Below are positions 2,185 to 55,082 of a stretch of DNA of 64,000 nucleotides, piece after piece (the stretch's first letter is position 1; each line of letters opens with the position of its first letter). This DNA is from Beroe forskalii. Taxonomy: Eukaryota > Ctenophora > Nuda > Beroida > Beroidae. Below the pieces are notes generated by a model. That model was not told the origin of the DNA. It did not search any database and saw nothing but the letters and a program-made list of their open reading frames with translations. The position numbers were made by a program, and so were the translations under genes. Location: positions 124,001 through 188,000 of the forward strand of contig WFMF01000038.1 in assembly GCA_011033025.1 (NCBI GenBank), written 5' to 3'.

Positions 2185-2294
2185 CGGGTAGTGAGAAGGG
2201 CGACTGGATAACTCCTGAAGTGTTGGGGCTGTGGCACTTCCACCACCATGCGCCCCTGAACCTGGACCATCAGCTCCAGCTAATCAGCAGACTG
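2185..2294 (+). CDS. VWA8: VWA8 exon, end of second AAA module (110 nt)
   Basis: Acceptor TTTTTCCGGCAG, donor CTG|GTGAGT. It begins with two bases of a split codon and ends at phase 0. The translation starts GSEKGDWITPEVLGLWHF and corresponds to the VWA8 segment just before the helix-rich part encoded by the exon at 11129. It is the source of the 92-bp tandem array that follows: the unit copies its last 60 bases plus the donor. Confidence 0.8.
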
Positions 2295-5200
2295 GTGAGT
2301 GGGCTTCTTCTTAGTTTCATAACACTCACTTCCACCATCATGCACCCCTGAACCTGAACCATCAGCTCCAGCTAATCAGCAGACTGGTGAGTGGGCTTCT
2401 TCTTAGTTTCATAACACTCACTTCCACCATCATGCACCCCTGAACCTGGATCATCAGCTCCAGCTAATCAGCAGACTGGTGAGTGGGCTTCTTCTTAGTT
2501 TCATAACACTCACTTCCACCATCATGCACCCCTGAACCTGAACCATCAGCTCCAGCTAATCAGCAGACTGGTGAGTGGGCTTCTTCTTAGTTTCATAACA
2601 CTCACTTCCACCATCATGCACCCCTGAACCTGGATCATCAGCTCCAGCTAATCAGCAGACTGGTGAGTGGGCTTCTTCTTAGTTTCATAACACTCACTTC
2701 CACCACCATGCGCCCCTGAACCTGGACCATCAGCTCCAGCTAATCAGCAGACTGGTGAGTGGGCTTCTTCTTACTTTCATAACACTCACTTCCACCACCA
2801 TGCGCCCCTGAACCTGGATCATCAGCTCCAGCTAATCAGCAGACTGGTGAGTGGGCTTCTTCTTAGTTTCATAACACTCACTTCCACCACCATGCACCCC
2901 TGAACCTGGATCATCAGCTCCAGCTAATCAGCAGACTGGTGAGTGGGCTTCTTCTTAGTTTCATAACACTCACTTCCACCATCATGCGCCCCTGAACCTG
3001 GACCATCAGCTCCAGCTAATCAGCAGACTGGTGAGTGGGCTTCTTCTTAGTTTCATAACACTCACTTCCACCATCATGCACCCCTGAACCTGAACCATCA
3101 GCTCCAGCTAATCAGCAGACTGGTGAGTGGGCTTCTTCTTAGTTTCATAACACTCACTTCCACCACCATGCGCCCCTGAACCTGGATCATCAGCTCCAGC
3201 TAATCAGCAGACTGGTGAGTGGGATTCTTCTTAGTTTCATAACACTCACTTCCACCACCATGCGCCCCTGAACCTGGACCATCAGCTCCAGCTAATCAGC
3301 AGACTGGTGAGTGGTCTTCTTCTTAGTTTCATAAGACTCACTTCCACCACCATGCGCCCCTGAACCTGGACCATCAGCTCCAGCTAATCAGCAGACTGGT
3401 GAGTGGGATTCTTAAGCGGTTACATGTCGAAGTGGTGACCGTATACCGCAACTTACATGGTCGAGGCGACAGCCGAGACTGTGTAAGTTGGATAATGGAC
3501 GAGGCGTGCCGAGTTCATTATCGAAGGTATACGGTCACAGCTGAGATCATGAAACGGATTATACCGACCGGAAACAGCTGGGACCTACTATTCTCTGACC
3601 AAACAACAGTATTTCTTCCCACTCGGGTCTGACGACCCTCGTCGGGATTCAACGCTTAAGTAGATTTTTGAGTGCTCCTTTATAAAATCAAATTTCATTT
3701 AATGTCATTTTGCACTGTAATTCAGTGAAGACCGTATAACCAAACTTACACGGTCGCTAAAACAAGCTTGGGAGGGGTATAATAATACTTCTCAGGAAAA
3801 CAAATAGTTGCCTGAGAGGAATGCCGTATGTTGCCTGAGAGTAATTTACGTGAGTCTTATGAAACTAAGAAGAAGCCCACTCACCAGTCTGCTGATTAGC
3901 TGGAGCTGATGGTCCAGGTTCAGGGGCGCATGGTGGTGGAAGTGAGTGTTATGAAACTAAGAAGAAGCCCACTAACCAGTCTGCTGATTAGCTGGAGCTG
4001 ATGATCCAGGTTCAGGGGCGCATGGTGGTGGAAGTGAGTGTTATGAAACTAAGAAGAATCCCACTCATCAGCTCCAGCTAATCAGCAGACTGGTGAGTGG
4101 GCTTCTTCTTAGTTTCATAAGACTCACGTAAATTACTCTCAGGCAACATACGGCATTCCTCTCAGGCAACTATTTGTTTTCCTGAGAAGTATTATTATAC
4201 CCCTCCCAAGCTTGTTTTAGCGACCGTGTAAGTTTGGTTATACGGTCTTCACTGAATTACAGTGCAAAATGACATTAAATGAAATTTGATTTTATAAAGG
4301 AGCACTCAAAAATCTACTTAAGCGTTGAATCCCGACGAGGGTCGTCAGACCCGAGTGGGAAGAAATACTGTTGTTTGGTCAGAGAATAGTAGGTCCCAGC
4401 TGTTTCCGGTCGGGGTATAATCCGGTTCCATGATCTCAGCTGTGACCGTATACCTTCGATAATGAACTCGGCACGCCTCGTCCATTATCCAACTTACACA
4501 GTCTCGGCTGTCGCCTCGACCATGTAAGTTGCGGTATACGGTCACCACTTCGACATGTAACCGCTTATTATACCCCTCCCAAGCTTGTTTTAGCGACCGT
4601 GTAAGTTTGGTTATACCCCTCCCATGCTTGTTTTAGCGACCGTGTAAGTTTGGTTATACGGTCTCCACTGAATTACAGTGTAAAAAAGCTTAAAATGAAA
4701 TTTGATTTTATAAAGGAGCACTCAAAAATCTACTTAAGCGTTGATTCCGGACGAGGGTCGTCAGACCCGAGTGGGAAGAAAGACTGTTGTTTGGTCAGAG
4801 AACAGTAGGCCCCAGCTGTTTCCGGTCGGGGTATAATCCGGTTCCATGATCTCAGCTGTGACCGTATACCTTCGATAATGAACTCGGCACGCCTCGTCCA
4901 TTATCCAACTTACACAGTCTCGGCTGTCGCCTCGACCATGTAACCGCTTAGTATACGGTCACCACTTCGACATGTAACCGCTTAGTAATACCTGCCATTA
5001 TCAATAATACCCGCCATTATCAATAATACCCATCACTACTAGTTTACTCGTGAAAATTTGCATGCCAGTACAGTTTGATTCAACTAAGAAAAGTCTGCTT
5101 CCAGAATTTTGAATCGTGACCAATTTCACGATATCATATAGCCGCTTAAAAACGCCAATTTTTGGGGATAGAATGGACTTTTTGAACAATAAATGACCAA

Positions 5201-8200
5201 AAAGACCCATAAATACGACTAAAATTAAAAACTGCTCTTTCCCATTCAGCAGTATGGCATAGAGTGGGATAGAGTATAAGCAGGCCCACCGTGCCTGCTA
5301 GAAATAATATCAAATTCTTAAATAATATAGTAGATTTTAAGTTATTAAAGATTCAACTTTAAAAACACGAAAATTAATTTTTGACTTTTGTGTTCCCCAG
5401 CTAGATTTATGCCTTTCTCTGCTACCTCTATTAACATATTTATTCCTTTTAACAACACCTACGAGAAAAGCTCATTATGAAGTTATGAATAATTTCAAAA
5501 ACCGCAATTATTATACTATCCTGGGAGCAAGTTTTACTTTTAAGCACAAAAGGGCTTGTTGAACTCGGCATAGGTGCAGATAATATTTTTTTGCAGTTCC
5601 CGAGAAATTTCTTGCAGTTTGGTTTTATTTTAGCTCACTCGGCGGCGCTTCGCGCCACCTCGTTCGCCAAAGCTTGTAGCAGGTTAATAGGCCGGGCATT
5701 TTCCGCAGGGCATGGGTCTATAAATTTATAAATTGCGTGGAAGCGATATTTCTACAAGAGAAATTTTTAAGGCACCTGCATCGTTCCGCGTCGATCGAAT
5801 ATGAATTGATCAAATGAAAAACGCACACAATTGCTGTTTTGCGCGATGCCATCGTGAATTAGTGTATTGTGCGCGATTTTCATTTGATCAGTCCATTCGA
5901 TCGACGCGGAACGATGAAACCACCTCAGTTTACATTTAATTTTAAAATTCATATCGGTACAGAGTGAAAGGCGGGGTTCTGGGGGCACAGCCCCCAGGAG
6001 CCAGAGGTTCGAAACATGAATAAATTGATTGGAACCATAATTTCTACTACAAAACCAAAGCTCCCAAAAAAGTCTGAAAGAGCAGATTTTCTTGTGAAGA
6101 TGAAGAAACAAACTGCAGTTTGGACCATTACTTTATTGAAAGGCTTGTCCTGAATGCTATGGCACTCGAACAAAGTGCAGATTTTTGATGTGCCAACATC
6201 CATGAAATTTGCTCTGAAATCTGAGAAAGTTTGCAGTTTGCTCAGGGCATTTGCAGTTCCCGTCAGGACCTCCAGTCACCATATCTGCAGTGGTGGAACT
6301 CGGGCTTCAAGCTCTTTTCTGTTATAAAATCCCATTGTCTGTTTGTGGGGTTTTCGTGGCTTTATAGAAACCGCCAACGTACAATTTGCATAATGTGCGC
6401 GTTGTTGTGGCAACACGTGCAAACTGATTTTTGTTCTGCCGCGTTCATTTCTGTTCAATGCCGTTTTGAGTGCGTTACTCCGTAACGAATTGGATTTTTT
6501 GGTGTGGTAGGTAGTATTCAATCAATTTGAAAATTTGAATTGAAGTGCTTGAAATTTGCGAATGAGGTGCTGCGTAGCAGAGCCGAGTGAGCTCTGTTTT
6601 TGCTGGCCCAACGGGCCTGCTAGTTTATTTTGCGCTTTCTGTTTGTCACTCCCCATAGATATTGGCAACGCGCGCAGGAAGAAAAGAAGAACGCCTATAT
6701 TTTTGGAGAGAGCACGCAAATTTTTTTGAAAACTAAGTAGCGCATTTTCCTTTTGATTTCGGAATTTCCAGTTAATGGCGCGTTACTATTTTGGCTATTA
6801 TTGATATTTTTGATGCGAGAAAATTTTCCGAAATGGTTGAATTATTTTGAAAAATATTCAGCTGAGCAAAATCATTATTTGCGATTAATATGCGTATTCT
6901 TGAAAGTTTTCATGGGGTTAAATGGCAAAATTAGATCCAAATGACATCTAAATCGGTTTGTCCATTAATTTTTATGTGATCAGGAACAATTAAATGTCAA
7001 ATCTTCAAAAATGTGGCCAATATGACCACATTAATTCCATTAATGAAGTTATTAATTTCAACCACTTTAATATCAATTATAATTTATACGCTAGACTGCA
7101 ATGTAAACGAATCCTTAACACTGTATAATTCTTGGAGCAGGTAAAAATCATGATGAAAGCATCCATTTCAATAGGAAGGATTTTGCTATGTTTCATTTCA
7201 ATAACAAATCTATCGTCCGGTAATTGTGACCTTTCAAATGATCCTCAAACCAACAATCCCATTGCTCTTGCCAAAGCAAAAGGGAAAAACAAAGATGGCA
7301 TGCAATGTAAATTCGCCGTTATAAATGGGTTTGTCAAGGAAATGTGTGTTTTTAAAGACAGAAGATGGTACAAGTGTCCTTTCTCCAAGAATTACTACAG
7401 GCAAGTGTTAACAAGATGCCGGATTATGCAATTTTCAAACCTTTGTCCTGACATGTCGTTCTATCAGACCTGTGGTCATGCCGCCTGTCCTGCTCATGAA
7501 AGTCTAGAATACGCCATTCCGAATACGGGTGTTGGAGTGTGCGGTGAAATACTGTGCCGGCATACCATCGCCAACTCCTGGAAATACGTCTCCAATATCA
7601 TGAACTCTTACGATATTTCCGTGTATAGGTGTGACGGTGAGCAGCAGTGTGATAACCTCATTAATGGCACCGCAGCGGACGAGTACGAGTGTGCCGGGTC
7701 TGATGCGGGATTTGATTGTTATAAATGCAACAAACCAAATGTTTCCAGCCCCAACGTGGTCCCTAGCTCGCAGGTCTGTAATGATGTGTGTGACTGTATA
7801 AACTGCTTCGATGAAGCTACTTGTCACAACGTCACGAAAGGTTTCTTCTGTATCCCTAATCCCGCAGTCATCGACCACCCGATATGCGGCACTGAGACCC
7901 CGTATTATGTAGGGCATTATCTTACTTGTGATGGCACGGAGCACTGCAAGGATGGTGAGGATGAGGCAGAGTGCAGTGACAATGAGAGATGCCGATCTTT
8001 GCGTTCAAGAGGGGGCATCAGGACTCTGCATCCTTCCGCTAAGTGTGTACCTCCACTGGAGTTTGATTTGTTATGTGATGATTACAAGGATCAAATGAAT
8101 TGTACTGGCTCCTCAACGGCAAGCCCACTTCTGTGTAATGTACAGGGCTACCCCACAAAGTTATCCAAGTATGTCCTTTGCAAGGGCTTAGGGCTATGTG

Positions 8201-11200
8201 ATGATGGTCTTGATGAAGCTTGCGTTGAAACCAAAGATTGTACCATCCACAAGCATAAGCTCTGTGATGGAGTAAAGGATTGTCCAAGAGGTTTTGACGA
8301 GGGCATCTTCTGTCAATCAATGGCTGAAAGCGATATAACTTGCGAGAGAAAACTCTCGGAAGATAATCTGAGGAAAAGGATTCCTATGGCATGGATTATG
8401 GATGGCGTGGAGGATTGCCTGAACGGAATTGACGAAGATACGAGCAAATGGTACCAAGTTTGCGGTACAGGTAATGACAAAGATTACGAATATGAAACTT
8501 CCGAATCGTGTGAGCACCAGAATCTATTCAAGTGTCCGAATCCCTTTGCTGCAACATTAAAGATCGAACGGCTTTGTAAAGAATTAGCCAACTGTGACAG
8601 CGCAACATGTCTTGTGTCTAGGAGGGACTTCCAATTAGATATCAAAGTGAAGGTAATCAATTCCGAGAAATGCCTCTTCTACTGTCTCCCAGGACTGCAA
8701 AGCTTGCAGCGAGTAATTGGTCCGTGCTCAGAAACTCAAATACATCACAAACAAAAATATATGGAGTGACGGACATTGCGATTATTTCCAGCGAGAGCTA
8801 TGCCCGAAACGTTGGGTGTCATAATATCTTTGGCGAATTCTATGTGTATCTTGTTTGTAGTAAACAATGCAAGGAAAACATAAGATGTCCCTTGAAGGTG
8901 CTTCACAAGTCGTCTTGTATCAACTTCCAGAGTTCTCGACCAATTGTTGTGTCGATAACAGAGGATCGCAAACTAACGGTCGTAAGACAGACAAGTGAAG
9001 GTAGGTTTGCGCGGGACTTGTTCGGTTGTGCGAATGACAGGTGCGTGACTTACGATAAGGTGTGTAACTTGGTGGATGATTGCGGGGATCAGTCCGATGA
9101 AATGCTCTGCCAGAACAGCGTCAAGTGTAAGATTTCCGGGGAATACGTGCCTTCCTCGAAGATGTGCGATGGAGTCTTCGATTGCTTTGATTTCAGTGAC
9201 GAGTGCTACGAGGAGTGTGATAATCATGTTAGGATGTTTGAGCACCCGGCACTTTTCATAATTGCATGCATTTTTGGTGCCATTATTTTGGTGCTGAATC
9301 TTAGTGTAATAATCGTGGGATTTGTCAAGTATGTGAAAATGAAAACAGATATTGGACGACTGAATCAGTGCCTGATCCTTGTCATTTCTACTGGGGACAC
9401 GCTCCAAGGGATCTATCTGATATTGGTCGTGATATCGGATCAGTTCCTCAATAAGAGCAGTTGCGAGACCCAGATAGAGTGGATAACTAACAAAATGTGC
9501 ACAGTTCTGGGGGTAATATCCACGGTTGGATCGCTGGTGTCCCTCTACTCAATGACAATCCTGAGTATCATCCGAGCTCTGGGTACAAGGCGAATAACTC
9601 CCCCAAGCGATGAATCCTCAAGGAGGACCCGGCTAAAACGTTTCCTTGGAGTCGTGGTTATTTACATCTTGGCGCTGGTGGTAGCTACGGTCCCCATGAT
9701 GTCGCCCCTAGGTGATCACTTCGTGTTGAGAAAGTCTTATGACAGCAACCCGCTCCTGGTCGGTAAACTGGACAAGGTACGGCACGTCAAGATGACACAA
9801 GTGTACTATGGAAGGTACAAAGTCCTTGACTACACCTGGAAAATGATTGACAATCTAATAAGTGGAATGTTTACAAATGGTAATATCAGAGGTGCAAACC
9901 TGGGTTTCTATGAAAGTAACGGGTTCTGCTTGTTCAACTACTTTGCTCGAGGAAACGACCCATCCACCTACTATTCTATCTTTGTGATAGCTAAAAACTT
10001 TGCCTGTATCATTACTATTACTGTGTGCTATACCATGGTCTTTTATGCAGCAAGAAAGAGTTCGGTTATAGCTGGCAATCAGAATAGGATCATACACAAG
10101 AGAAACAAGAAAATACAGAAGAAAGTATCCATCATCATTTTCACGGATATCCTGACATGGCTACCATTTCTACTGATTGGTTCGTTTCACTACCTGGGAT
10201 TTATCAATGCTTCTGATTGGTACACCATCTTCAGTGTGATCATCCTTCCACTCAATTCACTTATGAATCCGATTTGTATCCTGGAAAAGTATGGTAAAAT
10301 TATGATGTTAGGTATTTTACGTGCATTGAAATGCCCATTCAATTCTCGATTGCAAATGCCTATCTGTGATAAAGCCCAAACTGCCAACATGGCCACGAAT
10401 CAAACGGGAGTTAATCTTGCAGAGACAAGCAAATACAATCCTGCAACGAACAAAGGAACTGGTAACACTGTAACAATGAACACACAAACATTGGATGTGA
10501 AAAATTAAGTGTGCTATCATGTAGACTGAACCAGGCCCGTAGCGAGGGGGAGGCCCTGGGCCCAATGATAGAATACCTCTTGTAGGTCGTCGAGCGCAGA
10601 ATTTCACTTCTGAATTTGGTCGTCAGCGTCTCAAGAATTCTTTCTCTATCCGTGGATTTTTGCTGTAAAAATGCTATCTTCCGTTGATTTTCCAAAAATC
10701 ATTTCCTTTTTATTGTTAAGTTCTTAAGTTGTTAGTAGCCTACCTACATGTGGTCGTCTCATTAAACTATACAAGACTCATTTTTCGCCTTTCATGGGGA
10801 AAAATTCTTGGGCTGGATACCGGATTGTTTCGACGAATTGTTCCTGATCAACCGGATCATTGGCATAGTCACACAGTTGACAGTTTAATAGTATCACAAT
10901 TTATACAAGTTCATCTTATTTCATACTTTTAATCGCATTATTTTTGACGTTTCACCTAAATCGTGATGCCCAATACTCATTTCACGTTATGTATCCGAAA
11001 TCGTGACCAGTATTTCTTATTAAATGTGCTTCTGAAATCGGGATTGTGGAACAGTTAAAAGTTAACGATTCATCTGGATCGTCTCTGTGCGGTGTATATT
11101 TACTCTAATCTGTGACGCCCCCCATCAGTGCCCGGACACGTGCCGGGAGGAGGTACTCCGGCTGCAGAAGGTGTGTAAGGCGCTCCTCTCCCACTCTGAC

Positions 11201-14200
11201 CCGGGGATGGTGGCGCTGGGGGACATGCTCACCATGCGGAGAATGGTGGCTGTCTGCAGTGCTGTCTGTGGAGGGGTAGACATGGCAACCGCCCTTCACA
11301 CTGTCCTGCTCTCCAGGTGGGGATTACTGGTGTATCCAACAATGTATCGACTCTTCAGTGTTCACGCATTGGCGATCTTACAATTAAATGAAGTCCTTCC
11401 ATCTCTAAGTTTTATATTGGATGGATTTCTCTGCTCCCCAGGAAACTAGGAATATGGGATTTAGATCTCATTTAAAATGTGATATTAACCCACCTTCCAG
11501 GTTTATGCCCGTGCTGACAAAGAAGACGCTGTGCGCAACGCTCAATGACCTGGGTGTTATTGAGCGGAAGAAGCAGGAGGACATCGCCATAACCTCGACC
11601 CCTGATACCCTAACGATCGGGAGTGTGACAATACCTAAACTCAAGGGGGACCCAGAACTCGTACCTTCCACATTGTTCTACGAGAACAAGAATGTAAATG
11701 CTATGAATTACGTGTTCTATATTTCAAACTTCATATCTTTTCACATAGCTGTACTAAAAGTAAACGATATTCCACATTTAAAATTAACTTTTAACATCCC
11801 TACCAGCTAAAGGCTGATACCCTAAATTCATAGCAACACTTATCACATTTGGATTCACAGCAGCTTTAATTAACGTTTCCAGCTTTGTAAGTTTTAACTG
11901 CCCCCCTCCCCAGCAAGCCAGGACGCTGGAGGAGCTAGCCCGGTCCTTGGAGGGTGGGTGTCGTCACCTTCTCCTGGTTGGGAACCAGGGAGTAGGCAAG
12001 AACAAGCTGGTGGACAGACTGCTAAACCTCCTGGAGGCGGAGAGAGAGTACTTACAGCTCCACAGGGACTCCACTGTCCAGTCCATCACTGTCCAGGTGA
12101 GGAGAGGGAGTACTTACAGCTCCGCAGGGACTCCACTGTACAGTCCATCACAGTCCAGGTGAGGAGAGGGAGTACTTACAGCTCCACAGGGACTCTACTG
12201 TACAGTCCATCACAGTCCAGGTGAGGAGAGGGAGTACTTACAGCTCCACAGGGACTCTACTGTACAGTCCATCACTGTCCAGGTGAGGAGAGGAAAGGGG
12301 GAGAGAGGAGGGAATAATGAATATGGACAGGAACACGAATAGAAAGCAATATGAGTATGGGGGGGGGGTAAGGGTGAACCAAGTCCTGCCATACTTTTTT
12401 CGATAATTGGGATAGATGCTTTGGGCTTCTACCCCCTTACAACCCCCCCCCCCCCAGTATAACACCATTACCTCCCTAAGCCCACCCTATCTGGCGGCCG
12501 GGTCGAGTACATGGACTCTGCCTTGGTAAGCGCCGTCAGACATGGCAGGGTTCTTGTGGTAGATGAGGCTGACAAAGCCCCCACCAATGTGACATCAGTT
12601 CTGAGGACACTCCTAGATACTGGCTCTATGTGGCTCCCAGGTCAGAGATTCAGTGATTGTTTTACTCTCCACAACTCCATGAATTATCTACTTTTGCCCG
12701 GAAATTTTGAACGTTTTATCTGAACATTTGGTAGCATCTTATTCTGCCGTATTTTGTCAGATGGCAGGAAGATAGTTCCGGCTAGCAAGTCTTCTACCAC
12801 TTCTGATTCTGAGATAGCATGTCACCCTGACTTCAGAGTTATCTTCCTGGCCAACAGACCAGGGTTCCCCTTCCTGGGCAATGACTTCTACGCAGTGATG
12901 GGCGACCTCATAAGTTGCCATGCTGTGGACAATCCCGACCCTGCATCAGAACTGGTAAGTCTCCTCAATTCCTCTAACCAAATCTCTCTTTTGTTGTTAC
13001 ATGGTGCAAGTACAAGTCTTTTAACTTTAGAATTTGATTTAATTAATTATTCCTTTATCCCACGCAGGCCCTCTTGACGCAATACGGTCCGAGTGTTTCT
13101 GAAGAGTTGCTGCTGAAACTCATTGCTGCTTTCAGTGAACTAAGATCCATGTCGGACGCGGGAACTTTCCTCTACCCCTACTCTACAAGGGAGCTAGTCA
13201 ACATAGTCAAACATTTAGAGGTACTAGTCAACAAAGTCAAATGAGACAAGTTTCAGTTTTGCAAAATTGCATTTTTCATCCGCGGTATTTTATGATCTTG
13301 AGCCGGTACGTGACCCTGCGTTTTTGGTGTGGCTAAGGGGCTTTTATTAGTGCGTGCACATTTTAAAACATACTTCTTTTGTATTATCTTTGTGAAAAGA
13401 CCGGCACCTCTGTAAAAGCTAATGCCCGTATTCCAGGCTTATCCTGAGGACGGAATAACAGCAGCTCTGTCAAACGTCCTGGACTTTGAGCAGCAGGACG
13501 GGGATCTCTGGGACACGATAGTCACCGTCCTTCACAGACGCGGCATTCCATTCGGTGCCACGCCCATCGCTTCTGTGTCACGCCGGTAATTTCAATACTA
13601 GACTTTCAGTGTCACGCCCATACCTCGAAAAAATATTTTTTTTGCATGTATCCTGAGTTTGAAATCACAAAACTGCATATTTTTTGCCTAGGCAAATTCT
13701 GATTTCATATACAACAAAAATTATTCACAGGTGCACGACATCAAATTTCAAAATTTCCTCTCAGCAGCATCCTAAAAGCTCCCTGCACGTTGAGTTGATA
13801 AGTAATAAGTGGAGCAGGGGTCTGGGGGCGGCAGCCCCCAGAAGCCAGACATTTTCTATAAATAAAATTGTCGCCTCAATAGGATTTTAACTCCTAATTC
13901 TGTCCTGTAAGTTGAGTCGATTGATAACATGTGAAGCAGGGGTCTGGGGGCGGCAGCCCCCAGAAGCCAGACGTTTTTTATAAATGAAATTGTCGCCTCA
14001 GTAGGATTTTAACTCTATCTGTCCTGTAAGTTGAGTCGATTTACAACATGTGAAGCAGGGGTCTGGGGGCGGCAGCCCCCAGAAGCCAGACGTTTTCTAT
14101 AAAGAAAATTGTCTTCTCAATAGGATTTTAACTCTTAATTCTGTCCTGTAAGTTGAGTCGATTGATAACATGTGAAGCAGGGGTCTGGGGGCGGCAGCCC

Positions 14201-17200
14201 CCAGAAGCTAGACATTTTCTATGAATAAAATTGTCACCTCAATAGGATTATATAACTCTTATTTCTTTATTTCAGCGTAATTTAAGATCAAGGTACCTTA
14301 GCAAATGTAATGTAGTTACAATTTTTAGGCCCCCAAAAAAATTTTTTGGGGGCCTAACTCAAAATTTCGATCAATAACATAAGTGCGAAATTAAGTTTCA
14401 AAGCGATTCTGAAAATTTCGTGCAAAAATATTAAAAAATGGCGGAGGAGTAGCGAAAAATGTAAAGTCGATTTTCGCAAAACCGCAAACCGAGAAAATGG
14501 CGATTTTGTGGTTTTTTAGAGGTTTTTTGGACCTCAAATGGCCATTTTAGTAGCAATCAACCCCATACTTGCAGAGAATACATAAACCAATGCTATCTAT
14601 CGAATAAAGTTGGTTTCATTCAAAAATATTGATATTTGGCCAAGTTATGGGCAGGGGCGTAGCCAGGGGGGAGGCGACACAGGCGGTCGCCTCCCCCTTT
14701 TCAGATGAGTAGAAAAAATAACTTCAGGTTGCCCAATTTTGTAAATCTGCTTTTCAACGCAGAAAATATATTTCATTTAAATTTAATTAACTACTAGTAA
14801 TACCTTAGGAGGTCTATTTATGTGGGTTGAAATTGCGGTGTTTGAAATTTTGGTAGGTTGAAAATATGGGGATTTTTTTCAAAAATCCCCAAATTTCACC
14901 CACCAAATAAAATTGGGTGATTTTTCTAACTTTTTGCTGACAAATTAAAGATTTCTTGCGGAAAACAATGGAAAATTAGATTAATTCTAATATTACAAAT
15001 CGAATTCTTGATCGTCTTCCTGAGCCTCTGCTTCATAAATTACTGTTCTAAATTTTTGAATTTCAATTCTTTTAACCATTTGACTTTGACTAAACTATCT
15101 GTAACTATCTGAAAACTCATCTCTGATACGAAATTGTACTGTTTTAGTACAGATAGTTCAAGAAATTTCGAAAGCGGGTTGAATTAAATCGGGGAGTAAA
15201 ATTGTGGCGGGCAAAATTTTGGTAGGTTGAAAATATGGGGATTTTTTCGAAAAATCCCCAAATTACAACCTTTATAAATAGACCTCCTAAGGTAATTCCT
15301 CAATTTAGTTCGTCCAATGATGAGTGAAGTTTGTTTAAATAAGTGAGAGCAAAACAGTTCTGTTTCTTACATTTCTCTGGGGCAAAACTAGTATTGCAAA
15401 ATCATATCACTGCTCGGTGAGTTAAATATATAGGTTCCAACTTAAAAGAGGTTGAGGTGTAACTCATTCTGTTGATAAGCAAAATCATATGACGATCTAT
15501 CAATGTGATTTGATTATCATTTGAAAGATTGAAACATCACATTTTATTAGCTGGGATTATTAGTAAACATAGATGGTAAATCTGGGACTTAATCCGGTGA
15601 AATGCCCATCACCCATATAATATCTCATTCACAGTCTAATCAGTTCAAGATGCTTTTTCGGCTATTTATTCGGTTATCAGTTAGTTTAATATTATGAATT
15701 GGAAAAATTTTCAACATTCACAAGCTATTATCTACCAAAAACATAATTTTGACTTCCAATTCTGTGTATATAACTTAACAATCAAATTCTTTATTTTGCT
15801 GCCTATTTCGCTGGAAAATGCTCAAAAACACCTTCTTTTTTCAAAAATTCCCTCGGGGGCTCCGCCCCCCTAACCTTCAGGGGCTCTGCCCCTGGACCCC
15901 GCTGGGGCTGCGCCCCCAGACCCCGCAACAGCCGGCGCTTCGCGCCGGCACTGTCAAGACTTCTCTGCTCGCGCTCCGCGCCAGCAGCAGCCTCCCCCTT
16001 TTCAAAATCCTGGCTACGCCCCTGGTTATGGGCCAATATAAGCTTGCGCGACGCGCGTATGCCCATATATGGGCATACGTTTTTCGGCCATAACTCGGCC
16101 ATTTTTTGAGATATCGACTTCAAATTTTTTTATGGTAACTCAGGGGACCATTATCTATCGATTGCACACCTCAAATCTCGTCCAAGTCGCTTTTGAAAAA
16201 ATATGCCCATTTTAGGCCCATATTTGGGCATGGCGCCACGGCGGCGCCAGTGGGTCTGGGGGTACCAAACCCGGCCAAAAAGTTGGCCCACATGGTGTAC
16301 CTTTTGGGTCAACCATTATCTCAGAAACGTGTTTTCCAAAAAATTTGGGCCAATATAAGCTTGCGCGACGCGCGTATGCCCATATATGGGCATACGTTTT
16401 TCGGCCATAACTCGGCCATTTTTTGAGATATCGACTTCAAATTTTTTTATGGTAACTCAGGGGACCATTATCTATCGATTGCACACCTCAGATCTCGTCC
16501 AAGTCGCTTTTTAAAAATATGCCCATTTTAGGCCCATATTTGGGCATGGCGCCACGGCGGCGCCAGTGGGTCTGGGGGTACCAAACCCGGCCAAATAGTT
16601 GGCCCACGTGGTGTACCTTTTGGGTCAACCATTATCTCAGAAACGTGTTTTCCAAAAAATTAGGGTTGAACCCCCCCTTAAAACATGCACTTTCATTTTC
16701 ACAGCTACGGAATCCCTTGTAATGGAAAGTCGATAAACACAAAAAATGCACAATTTTATTTAAAAAAATGCACATTCGTTTCTTAAATAAAGATAGAACT
16801 CAAGTAATTTAATGCATTTTTGTCTTGGGAGTTGGAAATATCTTAAAACTGCATATTTTGAAAAGGATTTTGCATGTATCTAGGATGGCCAGGATTAAGT
16901 TTTTTCGTGGCATGGTCACGCCAGTAATGTCACCAACTGTCGGTGCCACGCCAGCAATTTCACTTAACTGTCGGTGCCACGCCAGCAATTTCACTTAACT
17001 GTTATTGTCACGCCGGTATTATGTCACTCAACTGTCATTGTCACGCCGGTGGACGCTGATTACACTCCACTGCCGTATCACGCCGGCTATATTGATCCAC
17101 TATGGACTGAATTCTGATTCATCACATTTCAGAAATAATGAAAGAACGCTTCTTTTATCTTATTGATTCTGAGGAGTTCCGTTTCCTGTTAATTTCATGT

Positions 17201-19881: not shown

Positions 19882-19899
19882 GTAAGATTTGGGGATTCC

Positions 19900-32270: not shown

Positions 32271-32405
32271 TGATTGCTGCATACATGGTATTAATAGGGA
32301 GTAAATACAACACTTGCAATTATCGTAATTGCACTCGCAAGCTCGTGCACCACTAATAAATGCACCGTGCTCGTATTTAACATGAATTCCCCACTGCAAG
32401 CTGTG

Positions 32406-38544: not shown

Positions 38545-39947
38545 AACCGAGCATCGTCCTTAACTCCCATAGCTAATTTCAGCTGATAGTTTTCGTAACT
38601 AACATAGTTAGAATGCTCTTCACAGTACAATACTTGATTGCATTATATGCATAACTAGGGGGTTTACTCGTGTATTTCAATGGCTTATGATGATTAAATA
38701 AGCCATTGAAATACCGTCTGTAGAAGGTGTGTAGGTAGAAGGTATCGTGTAGGTAGAGTAGGTATTCCGTCTGTAGAAGATTGTGTATGTAGAAGGTATG
38801 TAGAGTAGACATATTGTGAATGAGATACTTTGCCTGGACCCTCTATATACTAGCATTGACGAGATACGTAACATGATGTGGACTGATAAAGTGCGGTTAT
38901 GCGAGAACTTGTTGCATGATGTTTGTTGCATGATATAATGCAGATCACGCAAGTTGTGTGAGTTATTATTTTCGGATGTGTATTTCAATGTGTGCTCACA
39001 GTCAGAATTAGAATTAGAATTAGAATTATAAGAGGTCAAATTACATTTGTAATGCGGACCCTATATAAAAGATGGTTAAATTATAAAAAAAGCAATAAAT
39101 TAAATATATATACAAATGTTGCTAGGAGGAAACTCCTCAAACCTATTAAAAACCCCCATAACCAAAAAGTACGTAGAAACTCAAGAACTAGAAGGAGAAT
39201 TGAAAGAAAAGAGTGACCATAATCAAGTACCGGAAAGTCATAGCTCGGAAAGAACGAGGAAGGGTCAAAATTAAGAACCCTAACTCCCATAGCTAATTTC
39301 AGCTGGCTCCACCGTAACTAACATGAACGAATGCTCTTCACAGTACAATACTTCGATTGCATTATATGCATAACTAGTTTCATTCGTTACTGTTAACATA
39401 ACTTACGTTTACGAATGAGTTTGTACGACGATATGTTCCACTGCTCCTCCCAGCTCCTCCACTCCTCCTTCGCTGCTTCGCGCGTGGGAAACGTACTTTT
39501 AAGGTGTATAAAAAAATAAAAAAGATAATAGCCTTCCGGACTCCAGTCCCCTCCACTAAGGGAGGGGACATCCCTTACATACTTTACTAATTTCTCATAG
39601 GAGCTGAAATCTCCATTTTCAACGCCACTCTGACTTTGGCATGCCTGAAATCTCATGATTTTGCATCATGTGACGCAGTCCCACCGGGTGGATTAGATAT
39701 TTCATGAAATCATAAACTTACGATTGTAACTGGACTGTATCGAAGCTTCCAGATTAAGTGTGGCTATATAATGTGATTGTGTTGTACAGCGTTAAGTACC
39801 TGTGTCAAGTTGGGCTGCATATTAAATTACAGCTGCATAATATTCCGTCATTTGACGGCCTTTCTTGGGAGTATATTCGTGTATTTCAATGCGTGCTCAC
39901 AGTCATAGGTCGGAAAGAACGAGGAAGGGTCGGGGTAAGAACCGAAC

Positions 39948-40122
39948 CAGGGGCGTAGCCAGATTTTTGAAAAGGAGGCGTCGAAACCTGTTCAATGTTG
40001 TATTTTGCTTGGCTCAAAGCTCTCATTATGACAAAATGCTAAAATGAACAAAATTTTCGCAATCTCTGTCCAAAAAGGGCGAGGCAGCCGCTTGTGTCGC
40101 CTTCCCCCTGGCTACGCCCCTG
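39948..40122. mobile_element. hAT-type MITE, copy 2 of 4
   Basis: Same ends and same AACCGAAC / AACCGAGC flanks as copy 1, which shows it was copied with the array unit. Interior differs by a GGGCGAGGCAGCCGCTTG stretch. Confidence 0.85.
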
Positions 40123-42181: not shown

Positions 42182-42357
42182 CAGGGGCGTAGCCAGATTT
42201 TTTGAAAAGGAGGCGTCGAAACCTGTTCAATGTTGTATTTTGCTTGGCTCAAAGCTCTCATTATGACAAAATGCTAAAATGAACAAAATTTTCGCAATCT
42301 CTGTCCAAAAAGGGCGAGGCAGCCGCTTGTGTCGCCTTCCCCCTGGCTACGCCCCTG
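42182..42357. mobile_element. hAT-type MITE, copy 3 of 4
   Basis: Same ends, interior and flanks as copy 2. Confidence 0.85.
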
Positions 42358-44289
42358 AACCGAGCATCGTCCTTAACTCCCATAGCTAATTTCAGCTGAA
42401 AGTTTTCGTAACTAACATGAACGAATGCTCTTCACAGTACAATACTTCGATTGCATTATATGCATAACTAGGGAGTTTACTCGTGTATTTCAATGGCTTA
42501 TGATGATTAAATAGTGTATAAATAGACCAAAGTCAAGATATTATTTGGTGTGTGTTTTTCCACTGCTCCACTGCTCCTCCCAGCTCCTCCACTCCTCCTT
42601 CGCTGCTTCGCGCGTGGGAAACGTACTTTTAAAGGTGTATAAAAAAATAAAAAAAAATAATAGCCTTCCGGACTCCAGTCCCATGCATAGCTAATTTCAG
42701 CTGATAGTTTTCGTAACTAACATGAACGAATGCTCTTCACAGTACAATACTTCGATTGCTAGTTTCATTCGTTACTGTTAACACTTCATTACTTACGTTT
42801 ACGAATGAGTTTGTACGACGATGTGGAGACATTTAAAAGTTATAGGGCATTGTAAGCATCTAGAAACATATCTTTTTACTCGTGTAGTTCAATGGGGAGA
42901 CATTTAAAAGTTATAGGGCATTGTAAGCATCTAGAAACATATCTTTTTATAAAAACTTTCCCAGCTCCTCCACTCCTCCTTCGCTGCTTCGCGCGTGGGA
43001 AACGTACTTTTAAAGGTGTATAAAAAAATAAAAAAAATAATAGCCTTCCGGACTCCAGTCCCATGCATAGCTAATTTCAGCTGATAGTTTTCGTAACTAA
43101 CATGAACGAATGCTCTTCACAGTACAATACTTCGATTGCTAGTTTCATTCGTTACTGTTAACACTTCATTACTTACGTTTACGAATGAGTTTGTACGACG
43201 ATGTGGAGACATTTAAAAGTTATAGGGCATTGTAAGCATCTAGAAACATATCTTTTTACTCGTGTAGTTCAATGGGGAGACATTTAAAAGTTATAGGGCA
43301 TTGTAAGCATCTAGAAACATATCTTTTTATAAAAACTTTCCCAGTCGAAAAAAAACCCTGAAATCTACTGGTGTGTGTTTTTCCACTGCTCCACTGCTCC
43401 TCCCAGCTCCTCCACTCCTCCTTCGCTTTATAAAAAAAAGCAATAAATTAAATATATATACAAATGTTGCTAGGAGGGAAACTCCTCAAACCTATTAAAA
43501 ACCCCATAACCAAAAAAGTACGTAGAAACTCAAGAACTAGAAGGAGAATTGAAAGAAAAGAGTGACCATAATCAAGTACCGGAAAGTCATAGCTCGGAAA
43601 GAACGAGGAAGGGTCGGGGTAGGAACCCTAACTTCCATAGCTAATTTCAGCTGAAAGTTTTCGTAACTAACATGAACGAATGCTCTTCACAGTACAATAC
43701 TTCGATTGCATTATATGCATAACTAGTTTCATTCGTTACTGTTAACATAACTTACGTTTACGAATGAGTTTGTACGACGATATGTTCCACTGCTCCTCCC
43801 AGCTCCTCCACTCCTCCTTCGCTGCTTCGCGCGTGGGAAACGTACTTTAAGGTGTATAAAAAATAAAAAGATAATAGCCTTCGGACTCCAGTCCCTCCAC
43901 TAAGGGAGGGACATCCTTACATACTTTACTAATTTCTCATAGGAGCTGAAATCTCCATTTTCAACGCCACTCTGACTTTGGCATGCCTGAAATCTCATGA
44001 TTTTGCATCATGTGACGCAGTCCCACCGGGTGGATTAGATATTTCATGAAATCATAAACTTACGATTGTAACTGGACTGTATCGAAGCTTCCAGATTAAG
44101 TGTGGCTATATAATGTGATTGTGTTGTACAGCGTTAAGTACCTGTGTCAAGTTGGGCTGCATATTAAATTACAGCTGCATAATATTCCGTCATTTGACGG
44201 CCTTTCTTGGGAGTTTACTCGTGTAGTTCAATGCGTGCTCACAGTCATAGGTCGGAAAGAACGAGGAAGGGTCGGGGTAAGAACCGAAC

Positions 44290-44463
44290 CAGGGGCGTAG
44301 CCAGATTTTTGAAAAGGAGGCGTCGAAACCTGTTCAATGTTGTATTTTGCTTGGCTCAAAGCTCTCATTATGACAAAATGCTAAAATGAACAAAATTTTC
44401 GCAATCTCTGTCCAAAAAGGGCGAGGCAGCCGCTTGTGTCGCCTTCCCCCTGGCTACGCCCTG
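44290..44463. mobile_element. hAT-type MITE, copy 4 of 4
   Basis: As copies 2 and 3, but the right terminus is shortened (GGCTACGCCCTG) and the right flank reads AACCAGC, so it is slightly decayed or poorly resolved. Confidence 0.8.
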
Positions 44464-44986
44464 AACCAGCATCGTCCTTAACTCCCATAGCTAATTTCAG
44501 CTGATAGTTTTCGTAACTAACATGAACGAATGCTCTTCACAGTACAATACTTCGATTGCATTATATGCATAACTAAGGGAGTTTACTCGTGTATTTCAAT
44601 GGCTTGATGATTAAATAAGCCATTGAAATACTCCGTCTGTAGAAGGTGTAGGTAGAAGGTATGTGTGTGGGTAGAGTAGTATTCCGTCTGTAGAAGGTGT
44701 GTATGTAGAAGGTATGTAGAGTAGACATATTGCAGATGAGATACTTTGCCTGGACCCCTCTATATATACTAGCATTGACGAGATACGTAACATGATGTGG
44801 ACTGATAAAGTGCGGTTATGCGAAACTTGTTGCATGATGTTTGTTGCATGATATAATGCAGATCACGCAAGTTGTGTGAGTTATTTTCGGATGTGTATTT
44901 CATGTGTGCTCACAGTCAGAATTAGAATTAGAATTAGAATTATAAGAGGTCAAATTACATTTGTAATACCGGACCCTATAAAAGAT

Positions 44987-45086
44987 NNNNNNNNNNNNNN
45001 NNNNNNNNNNNNNNNNNNNNNNNNNNNNNNNNNNNNNNNNNNNNNNNNNNNNNNNNNNNNNNNNNNNNNNNNNNNNNNNNNNNNNN
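44987..45086. other. Assembly gap (100 N)
   Basis: Exactly 100 Ns, the usual placeholder for a gap of unknown size. It lies inside a repeat unit, so the true array is longer than shown and the join to the right is less certain. Confidence 0.99.
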
Positions 45087-50100: not shown

Positions 50101-53100
50101 ATATTTTCCATACCCAGTCACTGCTGGACACGAATAAACCATTATTAGTTCACCATCGTATCACAGAATAGGGCTACAGAAAAATTTTCGTCATAAACGT
50201 AATTTCTACAATTCTGCGGCTCAATGTTTAGAGGCTTCCCATGACGACAAATTCTGACTGATCGCCCTGAAACTCGTTTTATAGCTAAATCTCGAGGGTT
50301 AAAAGCAACGTAATGAAATAAAACATCATCCGATGAAAACTCTTTGAGTTACAGATGTTCAAAGTAGCGCAAAATAGCATTTTATCGCAAAATACGCTAT
50401 TTTAGTGGTTTTACGCGATTTTGATGACGTCATCACAGCACCAAAATAGGCTCAAACCAACTTCCCATATAGCCTATCACACAATTCCGCCTTAGTACAA
50501 CATACTTTGACCGGTCTCATCTCAAGATAAGTCGCAGTTCTTGACATCTCGTTCGTTTAAGTTTTATCCCAAAATTTTGACATCGATTTTTCACCGCACC
50601 TTAGAAAATCGCGTATATCTCGATGAAAAATCGAGATAGCCCAATAATCCATATGATTTTCTGAAAGCTCTTTAAATTTCCAACTAACGATTTTTCAACA
50701 TTTCTGAGCTATCTCCATTCCTTCTTGGTGAAAAATGCGCTCGAAAATGGCCTATTTTCGCTAAAAAAGCAATAAAATTTCGCTAATCGATTTCAATCGT
50801 AATCAAGTTTACAATAGCTGTATTTGTTACAATAACATGTAACGTAATCATTCGGAACCCCCTCCCCCAGGTGATTACGTAATAATATGTTGTTGTTGTG
50901 AAACCCACGGTGGGGCTGGCAATGTGCCGCAATATAATATCAATAGTACGATACCTATTCGCTGCCTGTCCGCTGTAAAGAGCTTGTGGTTGATGTTGAT
51001 GTAACTGATCTCACACTTCATATACTTGTCCATGAACTTCTCCACCTCCGCTGTTTTCCTCAAATTCAGCGACAGACAGGTGTGGTAAGCCTCGCGTTTT
51101 AGGTTAGGAAACCGTTTGAAGGACGCCTTGCTCATCTGCATCAGTTTTAAACTTTACAACACTACTTAATACATCAAATTTGAGACCTGAAGATGTCGTA
51201 AAACGACGGAATTGATTGTCATTAAAGAAACACGTTCACATATTTTGTATTTGTACCATTGAGTCAAACAAAAATAAATATATAATCAGTCACCTGCATC
51301 AGGATGTCCGTTATGGTTTCCGAGGACTTCTTAATCGCGCGTTTGACCGGCTGCACGTAGGTTCTGATCTGCTGGGAGGCCAGGTTGTCGAAGGTGATGT
51401 TGGGAGTGAAGAGGGCGGGTTTCGCGCCGCACGCGCTCAGAATCCCGTGCTCAATCTGGAGCTCAATGTCGTCCGGGAGGACTATATTCTCCAGATCTGT
51501 ACAGATCGTAGCTTGGAACTGCTGGAACAAGTGTCTACCACCAGAGATATCCTCCCCATTCGACAGCTTGATCACCTCCCTCCCCTCAATGTTCCTGTCA
51601 AAGGTCCTGCAGAAGCCGTTGATGAGTTCAATGAGCGTGTCGTGGGCCCCCACGACACAGGGCCCTAAGGCCTCCAGAACCTGTTGCTGGACCACTTTCT
51701 GCTCGTTTATTCGGAGGATGAGCTCAGGCAGGCACTCCTTGACATGTTCCAGCAGTATCTTACACAGCCGCTGGGTTAGGTAGGGCGTGCCCATCTCCCC
51801 TGCCAGGAAGTTGTAGTACGTCTTGAAGAAGCGTTCCTCTTCCCCCAGACTCTCTTCGAAGAGTTGGCCCCCGTCCAGCTTAGCCTGGCTCCGGTTGATC
51901 ACCCCGATGATACCCAGCTTTACCGGGATGGACTTCCCTTCCAGTACTAACCTGTGGGAAACGACCGGTTAACCGAACCGAAAAACCAGTTTACCGGCAC
52001 TTTCTGGTCAACCGAAACCATAATCATAACCGTAACTGGTCAACCGGCCCTTTTTGCCTCACCGTAACCGGATTGAGAATGGTACCCAGTGGTTTGCTCC
52101 TAACCTGTTCTCCGTGGTCCGCTCCATGAGATCTGCCTTGGTTATCACACCCAGCGTCCTCCGGCCCTCCGGGTCCACCTGCCGGGCCATCTTGAGGGCC
52201 TCCGAGTTGGCCAGGTCCACGTTCCCTGGCGACACCTAGGCAGAGACGAATAGAATTTTAAATTTTAGTCTTGAGCACTTCCTTTGGTCCGATATTCATC
52301 TTGATAATATCGTACACTGTGACGAACTTAGATGAATTGCCAAAAAAGTTAACCAAACGCTCATTTTATCCCAACTTCATGGGCAATTCCTACTGACCGC
52401 TAGGATGATGCTGTTCGGGTTCTCTATGAAGGTCTTCACCAAGTTCACCGTCTGCTCCTCAATGTTCTCGGGCTGGTCCTCGACTGGCACCTGAAGGTCA
52501 GTTGTTGTAATGGTATCAAGTCTGCTTCGTGATCGAAAGATCCCGGGTTCGATTCCCTGCCATTCCTACTGAAAGGAGTGGTCAGTTGGTGTATTGGTAT
52601 CAAGTCTGCTTCGTGATCGAAAGATCCCCGGTTCGAATCCCTGTCATTCCCACTGAGTTAATTCCTGCAATTGGCCGTACGGCTGTTGAAGTGGAACTTT
52701 CAAGATAAAAAAGGCGATGGTGAGATCTGTAAAGTAACGTGATACACCATTGTTTAATATGAACTTTCTGAGTGTAACCAAAAGTCAGCTTGAAATTCCC
52801 CTTCCCCAAGAGTTTAAACGTGATAATTGATGCGAGAGTGTTGTTATCAGAATCTTTGGAACATCAGCTGACGACGAATATCACATGTCGAAATGTCCTA
52901 ATCAAAACCATTTTAAAACCAACTCCCAAATCATGTGGTTATTGTCGTGAAGAATGGAAAGGTCCCCTTGCCCGAGCGACCCCTTTGTACCAACATATAA
53001 CCATTGGGTTGTATCCCACCGAGGCCACCAGAATATGTTAAGGTTTATGTTGTAAACTATGTAAAGTAAACCAAGTGAACTGTGAAACAAAGGGATAAAG

Positions 53101-55082
53101 GCACTAGAGTATTATATAATATAGGTACCAATATACAGGTACCAATAGAACCAATAACCATATTGTGTATATCGTACCTTGACAATCCCCGGAAGGTCCA
53201 CCAGTGTGAGAGTCGGTAATTATTATTCGCCTCGTGTATACTTTATTGTGCTTATAACACTCGACTTCTCCTCGTGCAATAAGCACAATAATTTCACTCG
53301 GCTACGCCTCGTTAAATTAAGTCATGGAATCCTATCACTGTATTTACCGTACCTTGACGATCCCCGGGAGGTCCACGAGGGTGAGGGTCGGAAGATATTA
53401 TTCGTCTCGTGCAATTATTATTGTGCTTATAACACTCGGCTTCTCCTCGTGCAATAAGCACAATAATTGCACTCGTGAAATTATGCCTAGGAATCCTATT
53501 ACTGTGTATACCGTACCTTGACGATCCCCGGGAGGTCCACCAGGGTGAGGGTCGGAAAATATTATTCGCCTCGTGCAATTATTATTGTGCTTATAACACT
53601 CGGCTTCTCCTCGTGCAATGAGCACAATAATTGCACTCGGCTACGCCCCGTGAAATTATGTCTAGTAATCCTATTACTGTGTATACCGTACCTTGACGAT
53701 CCCCGGGAGGTCCACCAGTGTGAGAGTCGCCTCGTGTAATCATTATTGTGCTTATAACACTCGGCTTCTCCTCGTGCAATATGCACAATAATTGCACTCG
53801 GCTACTCCTCGTGAAATTATGTCTAGGAATACCGTACCTTGACGATCCCCGGGAGGTCCACCAGGGTGAGGGTGGGGAGGTCCGGTGCGAATATCTTGAG
53901 AGTGATGGGTTCCGCCAGGATGTTTTTGCTAGTCCCGCACAGTCTATCTGTCTCTGCCACGATCTCATCCCGCACCTAGAACCCAACAGATTTATTCAGT
54001 TGGAAATTCACAGTCTATACGCCGCGCGCGAGAAAATTGGCAACTCAACGTCATCAACTCACTACATCATGCTATGATAATGACGTCATCCTAACCGCCT
54101 TTTTCTCGTGTTTAGTTAAGTAGTAATCATTAATCTACTCAATTCCCAATCCGCAGTCCCCACAATCACCGATTGATAAAGACATGCATTTTACAGTGCA
54201 CTCAATTTGCTTTTCATACAATATATTGTGTAGAAAGTTCACTGTACAGTACGCGCTTTAAAGATTTTTCCATGTCCTTTTTCAGGGTTTTTAAAAGGTT
54301 TTTCCAAGGTATTCCAAGGTTTTCCCAAGGTATTCCAAAGTTTTTCCAAGATATTTCCGAGGTTTTGAATGCTTTTCCAAGTTTTTTTTTTCAAGGTTTT
54401 AAGGGGTTTTCCAAGGTTTTAAAGGGTTTTCCAAGGTTTTAAAGGGTTTTCGAAGGTTTCAAAGGGTTTTCCAAGGTTTTAAAGGTTTTCCCCATTTTTA
54501 AATAGTTTTCCAAGGTTTTTCCAGGGTTTTAAAGGTTTTCCAAGGTTTCCTCCGCACCTGCTCGAAGTCCCGGTACTTCTTGTCCGGCTGGTGGAGGAAA
54601 GCAGCCCAGGACTCTGGGGAGGCAGTGTCCTGTGTTATTTGGATGATGAGGGGGCGCCGTGTCACTATGCCTCCGCCACGAGGCAGGAAATCCTTCCTGG
54701 GGTGGAATTTCGGAGTCTCAGAAGGCGAAAAAACAATTTTGTTGTGTCTCAAAAATTGGAAAAACCCAATACTTAGTTGATAATTTCAAATTTTTCAGTG
54801 CAAAAATTAACAACCCATTTCTATGACATCCCAGAGTTTCATCAAGAAACTCCAAACACAGAATAAGTTATCAAGCTTTAGAAAATATAACGTGTTTTTG
54901 GGCCACCCAGTACAAGAAATAACCAGCATCGCTCACCTCACGATGCCCTCAAGGACGGAGCTCTTTCCAGCGCTCTGCGATCCGACCACCACAATCTGCG
55001 GTAGTTTTACGGTGTCTGGCGACGCTCCAACTGTGCTGAAAACGTCCTGCAGCTCGTTTATCACTTTCAGGAAGTTATCCAT
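47042..55082 (-). CDS. Dynamin-related GTPase, DRP1/Vps1-like, complete, nine exons, 600 aa
   Basis: Exons (minus order): 55082-54937, 54696-54558, 53975-53838, 52490-52398, 52235-52105, 51951-51294, 51135-50955, 48044-47848, 47161-47042; lengths sum to 1803 nt and all phases agree. Dynamin-related proteins assemble on membranes and sever them with GTP hydrolysis; DRP1 divides mitochondria and peroxisomes. GTPase domain: P-loop GSQSAGKSS (34-42), switch-I Thr in GGGIVTRRP (Thr61), DLPG (135-138), TKAD (204-207; TKLD is usual). [13 protein letters not shown] (227-239) is DRP1-like. The stalk and a C-terminal GTPase-effector region ([22 protein letters not shown] ... LEALERAD) follow. There is no PH domain, which excludes classical dynamin. 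The protein is about 100 residues shorter than animal DRP1 because the variable domain between stalk and effector region is missing or very short. Confidence 0.93.
47223..47635. mobile_element. Mariner-type MITE, 413 bp, in the last dynamin intron
   Basis: Ends CTCTTCAGTCTCAAATAGAC and the complement GTCTATTTGAGACTGAAGAG, each beside TA (47221-47222, 47636-47637). Runs of G next to the left end and C next to the right end add to the symmetry. No coding capacity. Confidence 0.88.
47848..48044 (-). CDS. Dynamin-related exon 8, GTPase-effector region
   Basis: 197 nt, acceptor GTTCCCATAG, donor TCCCAG|GTCCTT. Begins with a short acidic linker ([12 protein letters not shown]) in place of the variable domain, then [20 protein letters not shown] and [14 protein letters not shown]. 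Confidence 0.9.
48045..50954. other. Long dynamin intron with a TTACGA-rich repeat block
   Basis: Between 48235 and 50082 the motifs TTACGAATACTC / GAGTACTCGTAA recur many times in both orientations. AGAGCTCTTCCATGA at the left and TTCATGGAAGAGCCCC at the right form part of an imperfect inverted repeat (about 48281-48395 with 49845-49965). TTTCTACAAA...GTGAACTCACGTG flanks the block as a direct repeat (48235-48266, 50050-50082). The rest shows no exon for a variable domain. Confidence 0.6.
50955..51135 (-). CDS. Dynamin-related exon 7, stalk
   Basis: 181 nt, acceptor ACTGATGCAG, donor CGAATAG|GTATCG, phase 1 out. Encodes [17 protein letters not shown] and [11 protein letters not shown], which aligns with the 'AYINTKHPDF' segment of DRP1. 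Confidence 0.9.
51294..51951 (-). CDS. Dynamin-related exon 6, end of GTPase domain and stalk
   Basis: 658 nt, acceptor TTCCCACAG, donor GATGCAG|GTGACT. Encodes [20 protein letters not shown] and the helical stalk ([50 protein letters not shown]). Confidence 0.95.
52105..52235 (-). CDS. Dynamin-related exon 5, G4 motif
   Basis: 131 nt, acceptor GCCTAG, donor GAACAG|GTTAGG. Encodes [19 protein letters not shown] and [21 protein letters not shown] replaces the common TKLD. Confidence 0.93.
52398..52490 (-). CDS. Dynamin-related exon 4
   Basis: 93 nt, acceptor GACCTTCAG, donor CTAGCG|GTCAGT, phase 0 both ends. Encodes [18 protein letters not shown] and [11 protein letters not shown], standard dynamin GTPase-domain sequence after G3. 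Confidence 0.92.
52496..52650 (+). repeat. Two tandem tRNA-like (SINE-head) sequences
   Basis: 52496-52567 and 52575-52650 share GTATCAAGTCTGCTTCGTGA and a B-box-like GGTTCGAATCCC (GGGTTCGATTCCC in the first). An A-box-like TTGGTGTATTGGTA is present. GGAGTGG at 52575 can pair with a downstream CCATTCC-like end, but the T stem has mismatches and no clean anticodon arm forms. I read these as tRNA-derived SINE remnants, not working tRNA genes. Confidence 0.6.
53174..53880 (-). repeat. 146-175 bp tandem array, 5 units, made of dynamin exon 3 end plus its 5' splice site
   Basis: The exon-end base before each donor copy is at 53838 (real), 53692, 53517, 53353 and 53178. Each unit carries the DLPG-coding piece (GGACCTCCCGGGGATCGTCA) and GTACGG, then an AT-rich part with TTGTGCTTATAACACTCGGC and its near complement GCACAATAATTGCACTC. 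The outermost copy has the most changes (GACAATCCCCGGAAGG). Confidence 0.93.
53838..53975 (-). CDS. Dynamin-related exon 3, G3 motif
   Basis: Acceptor GTTCTAG, donor GTCAAG|GTACGG, phase 0 both ends. Encodes [17 protein letters not shown] and [12 protein letters not shown]. Its last about 35 bases and donor are copied four more times in the following intron. Confidence 0.93.
54282..54550. repeat. Minisatellite TTTTCCAAGGTTTTAAAGG in dynamin intron 2
   Basis: About 15 degenerate units of 17-20 bp; the most regular part is 54395-54490. It reaches to within a few bases of the exon 2 donor but does not copy exon sequence. Confidence 0.85.
54558..54696 (-). CDS. Dynamin-related exon 2, switch I
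   Basis: Acceptor CCACCCCAG, donor GAGCAG|GTGCGG, phase 0 out. Encodes [19 protein letters not shown] with the catalytic Thr. Confidence 0.92.
54937..55082 (-). CDS. Dynamin-related exon 1, start codon and P-loop
   Basis: ATG 55082; [19 protein letters not shown] then [20 protein letters not shown]; donor GTGAG|GTGAGC, phase 2 out. The 48-codon opening matches dynamin-family N-termini, so the start is secure. Confidence 0.93.

Follow-up and report, generated by a model that had tools for sequence, protein, structure and literature searches.

The window, by which we mean the whole 64,000-nucleotide stretch of Beroe forskalii DNA analysed here, holds two unrelated genes whose exons are accompanied by tandem repeats. 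The gene on the forward strand is presumably VWA8, the name given to it in an earlier sequence-only reading; its joined exons contain an AAA_5 domain (E = 2.9e-27). The other, on the minus strand, is firmly identified as a DRP1 dynamin gene: dynamin proteins of 601 amino acids, one of which (from Mnemiopsis) comprises Dynamin_N, Dynamin_M and GED domains, align with it by tblastn from 55082 to 47045. Among the best 120 of 7983 matches to the DRP1 model (435 aa), the top eight run over its full length at 75-79% identity and include Mnemiopsis leidyi (76%), and the named other animals and fungi among the matches listed lie at about 41-52%. An 8.8-kb VWA8 intron harbors a further gene without visible introns (window 7129-10505), composed of overlapping open reading frames (7129-8766 and 8622-10505) that encode cysteine-rich repeats followed by a receptor-like part. 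From reading alone we take this gene to be LDL-receptor/GPCR-like; NCBIfam returned no match for it.

Copies of the exon ends of both genes were scored against the maximum reached in 200 shuffles of the intron. The longest array follows the VWA8 exon at 2185..2293 (plus strand), recognized by its open frame, splice signals and copy scoring. The last 60 bp of this exon and its GTGAGT donor constitute the first, genuine copy of a 92-bp unit repeated 12.8 times over 2235..3413 (plus strand; TRF and copy scoring). Twelve further copies of the last 60 exon bases follow in 92-bp steps, with 56-59 of 60 positions identical, more than in any of the 200 shuffles; an additional partial match (33/60) is found at 4032. 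When the assembly (216 Mb, 1134 contigs) was searched with the 92-bp unit, the one unit searched genome-wide, and the best candidates were scored, the unit did not behave as an introner or other dispersed element, all 14 matches falling at C447:126185-128127. A second array, of 62 bp x 4.1 (12039..12293, plus strand; TRF and copy scoring), joins GTGA to the final 58 bases of the VWA8 exon that ends at 12096. Its three further copies of the last 58 bp match at 54-55 positions, again above the maximum of 200 shuffles. Mini-introns of 20-23 nt within the 92- and 62-bp units, which would leave open frames, were considered and dropped, being probably shorter than animal introns can be.

The 92-bp array is broken off at 3413 by a near-perfect palindrome of 1.15 kb (window 3413-4567). 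The arms of this element are 100% complementary at 3564-3911/4066-4413 and 99% complementary at 3413-3555/4425-4567, and 300 bp of one arm recur at 4603-4902 with 95% identity (window 4187-4902). At the palindrome centre the 92-bp unit is present in inverted orientation, in 2.3 copies (3850..4065, minus strand; TRF and copy scoring), and copy scoring places two inverted copies of the exon end at 3945-4037. The palindrome resembles a foldback-type element that incorporated a portion of the array.

Weak traces were seen at two other VWA8 donors. A 30-bp duplication spans the donor at 13221 (13191..13250, plus strand; copy scoring), bases 13191-13220 being repeated once at 13221 with 20 of 30 identities, barely above the shuffle maximum of 19. 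Degenerate repeats extend from the donor of the exon at 13437 (13553..13620, plus strand; TRF and copy scoring) and include one 16/20 match at 13606, for which the shuffle maximum is 14; a 31-bp array with similar units lies 3.3 kb farther downstream (16915-17047; TRF). In DRP1, an array crosses the donor of exon 3, which ends at 53838 (53164..53882, minus strand; TRF, tblastn and copy scoring). Copies of the exon end and GT stand about 160-175 bp apart (175 bp x 3.3 by TRF), and the four further copies of the last 45 bp match at 36-40 positions, above the maximum of 200 shuffles. Hence, of the exon ends said in the sequence-only reading to be repeated together with their GT donors, those at 2293 (13 copies in total), 12096 (4) and 53838 (5) are confirmed, those at 13220 and 13437 weakly so. 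The same reading was right that the repeats, lying in unrelated genes and differing in unit size (92, 62 and 175 bp by TRF), do not form one family.

Two additional DRP1 repeats abut exon ends. An array of 10-20 bp units begins 9 bp into the intron after exon 2 (54289..54548, minus strand; TRF; exon end at 54558) and does not cross the junction. An 84-bp x 1.9 duplication (52496..52656, minus strand; TRF), located in the same intron as the array at 53164-53882, ends 6 bp before exon 4 (start at 52490) and thus abuts the acceptor. By its putative box sequences this 84-bp pair resembles tRNA-derived sequence (TGGTGTAATGGT ... GGTTCGAATCC); ARAGORN reported no tRNA there or elsewhere in the window. 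None of 15 acceptors of VWA8 and DRP1 that were tested has an upstream copy of the first 30 exon bases.

The sequence-only reading had regarded such arrays as peculiar to 5' splice sites. A wider sample was assembled from exons matching four Pfam families (364 matches: 120 kinesin, 78 myosin head, 86 dynein AAA_6 and 80 DHC_N2; an ABC_membrane search with 15 matches stayed outside it). From these, 235 exon matches in 59 stretches totalling 214 kb were used, picked by match strength and exon density. The window was excluded from the crossing counts since it had been chosen by a reader who had seen its arrays. With arrays defined as TRF repeats of period at least 20 and score at least 100, 18 of 49 cross one of 436 exon ends, taken here as the ends of family matches and not as splice sites: 7 of 210 donors and 11 of 226 acceptors. 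This rules out a process confined to donors; the VWA8 and DRP1 donors represent half of a pattern general to both splice sites. Once splice sites were placed, at least two of the 18 crossings (C790:21745 and C580:527424) turned out to abut instead, and an array first counted as near (C790:16861) proved to cross by 5 bases. Three of the 18 lie on the single contig C897, four in DHC_N2 genes come from match ends and not from base-by-base reading, and the exon start at C212:75325 is uncertain, its match containing internal stop codons. One stretch of C897 (L058) was fetched once an array next to it had been recognized; it contributes a single exon match and brings that array into the within-intron test described below. 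Another (L075, on C441) was fetched for an array visible in the match list and lies outside the crossing counts.

Some sampled arrays are long. The acceptor array at C897:44256 contains about 51 copies of a 56-bp unit made of CTAATAC, TTTCAG and about 40 exon bases, and a kinesin acceptor array at C164:6405 has 27 copies of 58 bp. On C897, at 28164, a single exon has both an acceptor array (30 bp x 15) and a donor array (45 bp x 21). Other examples are a donor array at C212:77070 (36 bp x 9) and an acceptor array at C163:249158 (49 bp x 12). TRF periods of crossing arrays range over 23-58 bp in the sample and 62-175 bp in the window. Tandem arrays are difficult for assemblers and copy numbers may be wrong; as an explanation of the arrays themselves, assembly error has a negligible probability, given that copies within arrays differ from one another and that arrays are present in many contigs. 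Arrays of period at least 20 occupy 21 of 144 sampled introns, and in 10 of the 144 an array crosses a splice site by at least 4 bases. TRF assigns 9.6% of the sampled 214 kb, which surround genes, and 12% of the window to tandem repeats. In the published genome of the ctenophore Hormiphora, TRF repeats amount to 13%, and introns host many nested genes (PMC8527503).

The sequence-only reading knew of no named mechanism for such structures. They are known as "mirages", reportedly first described by Canestro et al. in 2002. Amphioxus mirages are minisatellite-like repeats spanning the exon-intron boundary in Adh3, globin, PGBD5, TnC and other genes; they affect 5' as well as 3' boundaries, and their repeats are 10-72 and 150-160 bp long (PMC3087553, PMC3902484). 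Mirages are further characterised by germline and somatic length instability, reported for amphioxus Adh, and by homogenisation of the copies within a cluster to the exclusion of the boundary copy. RT-PCR in amphioxus revealed regular splicing across the arrays, and a role in intron gain was proposed (PMC3087553). The Beroe arrays likewise span either a 5' or a 3' boundary (7 donors, 11 acceptors), have gene-specific unit lengths (23-175 bp as compared to 10-160 bp) and carry AG or GT in their copies. They differ in belonging to the ctenophore phylum, in having been sampled across gene families and not gene by gene, in copy numbers of up to about 51, and in being known from the sequence of one assembly alone. 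The donor-specific reading is wrong, and the kind of array is already known.

Whether splice sites are special depends on the null model. When each array was reduced to a single unit and placed with equal chance anywhere in the non-exonic part of the sample (null a), 18 crossings compared with 5.1 expected (P = 6e-6). A second model (null b), run on the first 47 stretches, gave 21 of 37 arrays crossing or lying within 25 bp of an exon end, against 6.0 expected and above all 2000 simulations, with the zone 26-500 bp from known exon ends under-filled (3 arrays seen, about 18 simulated). The fairest model (null c) places each array evenly in its own collapsed intron and so allows for short introns; it covers 22 arrays and the 144 introns (median 252 bp) of which the two ends are known. 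Here 10 crossings by at least 4 exonic bases were seen and 5.8 expected (P = 0.026), and 7 against 5.0 at a threshold of at least 8 (P = 0.19); counting arrays that cross or abut, the figures are 16 of 22 and 10.2 (P = 0.006). A looser exon pairing (166 introns, 27 arrays) yielded 13 versus 6.3 (at least 4 bases, P = 0.0008), 9 versus 5.4 (at least 8, P = 0.05) and 20 versus 11.2 crossing or abutting (P below 0.001). Thus the strong boundary enrichment of nulls a and b shrinks within introns: arrays are abundant and introns short, so crossings are bound to be common, and this explains much of the pattern. The refutation test set by the sequence-only reading, whether repeats cross donors more often than random positions, thus has a divided outcome: crossings of exon ends of both kinds exceed chance region-wide, a preference within introns is possible but moderate, and it is not specific to donors. 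A moderate real excess near splice sites, at donors and acceptors alike, is likely but unproven.

Such an excess could stem from a mutational mechanism coupled to transcription or to splicing (for example by way of polymerase pausing, of R-loops or of RNA 3' ends at splice sites) that duplicates DNA preferentially at both kinds of splice site. The counts of crossing or abutting arrays exceed every null (21 of 37 and 16 of 22, as above), and weigh in its favor, whereas the excess is weak in the fairest model, particularly at the stricter threshold, and the RNA-linked step is purely conjectural. Array units are moreover richer in G+C than the remaining non-exonic sequence (0.44 versus 0.38), and exon-like composition alone might favor duplication. 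We consider this process unlikely. Its extension to ctenophores generally, with arrays at 5' or 3' sites of several percent of introns and amphioxus mirages as a second instance, is likewise judged improbable.

More probably, the arrays are mirages in the plain sense: tandem duplications of the exon-intron boundary born from microhomology, which would survive since splicing keeps to the exon-proximal site. They would start as short tandem duplications whose exonic and intronic breakpoints share microhomologies of about 5-7 bases, as read by eye in three arrays. The words common to exon and intron at these breakpoints are GGAGAG (the 62-bp array at 12096), ACTCTTG (C163) and GTATC (C489). Expansion would follow, presumably through slippage or unequal exchange. 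The genuine splice site is predicted to stay exon-proximal, as the first copy at a donor and the last at an acceptor. Duplications within coding sequence would be purged, and those straddling either splice site would survive because their extra copies leave with the intron. An extra preference for the neighbourhood of splice sites, moderate and shared by both site types, may exist in addition. Crossings outnumber uniform placement in every null tried, though with P = 0.19 at the 8-base threshold; pure neutrality predicts no such excess, and this counts against it, as does the under-filled zone 26-500 bp from exon ends.

The near absence of arrays from exons agrees with the plain mirage interpretation. 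Arrays wholly within exon matches number 2 of 51, compared with 12.5 expected at the intron rate, and both sit in matches with internal stop codons. The sequence-only reading had also suggested that selection keeps the arrays, extra splice sites being useful for splicing or its regulation. Complete sites do occur in arrays, such as the branch-point-like CTAATAC with TTTCAG in the C897 unit. Conservation was evaluated on the intronic copies of 16 arrays: three from the window, the C441 array and twelve of the sample. Core GT/AG columns are variable in 8 of 32 cases, with 5.9 expected from the other columns, and core GT/AG cells in 8 of 368, with 10.8 expected; a near-perfect conservation apparent in a first count vanished once the other unit columns served as control. 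An initial impression from hand-cut units that lengths are rarely multiples of 3 (1 of 16) was not upheld by TRF periods, which are divisible by 3 in 4 of 17 crossing arrays and 13 of 49 overall and show no bias to such multiples. With the GT/AG of extra copies no better conserved than the rest, maintenance by selection appears very unlikely. The evidence indicates that splice sites are not what keeps the extra copies, which fit neutral passengers living where splicing removes them.

Alternatively, the introns with arrays might be new, the arrays being either dual-specific splice sites or what is left of a tandem duplication that created the intron. In intron gain of this kind the duplicated segment likewise carries a splice or proto-splice site, and a mirage-based model of gain has been published (PMC3087553). 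Human introns lying whole inside tandem repeats, with dual-specific splice sites and both ends in the repeat, are described in a further paper, where such sites are enriched in tandem repeats (PMC10809524). Splice sites lie in tandem repeats here too, but none of 22 arrays crosses both ends of an intron. Furthermore, two array introns occupy positions shared with array-free paralogues, the only clear cases in this comparison, whose model coordinates are approximate. Two myosin genes that lack an array there share the position of the C225 myosin intron, which has an acceptor array (378.0 phase 0); the C212 kinesin intron, with a donor array, is at 289.0 phase 0, and the C736 match is at 288.7 phase 0. 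The shared positions indicate that these two arrays are younger than their introns. That the array introns are new is likewise judged very unlikely.

The present data extend the mirages to another animal lineage, a distant one, supply a frequency from a sample (10 of 144 introns) and provide evidence against retention of the extra copies for the splice sites they carry. A limited search of open-licence literature found no mirages outside lancelets. In the papers found, amphioxus mirages are described gene by gene, and the frequency in a distant animal makes mirages countable. The arrays raise the questions of how the spliceosome selects a single site among as many as about 50 near-identical ones, of whether they contribute to intron gain, and of whether mutational hot spots coincide with splice sites.

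Other repeats were noted in the course of the analysis. Rfam detected nothing in the window, a plasmid collection gave no match, and NCBIfam no useful name. An 88-bp x 2 duplication at window 33680-33856 has a unit that ends in the 3'-splice-site-like TTTCTCATAG, followed by GAGCTGAAA. An array of 31 C-rich 32-bp units with strong GC skew (window 18139-19170) has no tie to a known exon. Kinesin exon matches in one sampled stretch (C291:171001-180000) repeat model positions 221-264 three times and about 266-300 four times, representing tandemly duplicated exons. Blocks of 55-bp subunits occur in both orientations at about 26.9, 28.6, 34.9, 37.7 and 41.5 kb (window about 26600-45000) and are likely a dispersed element.
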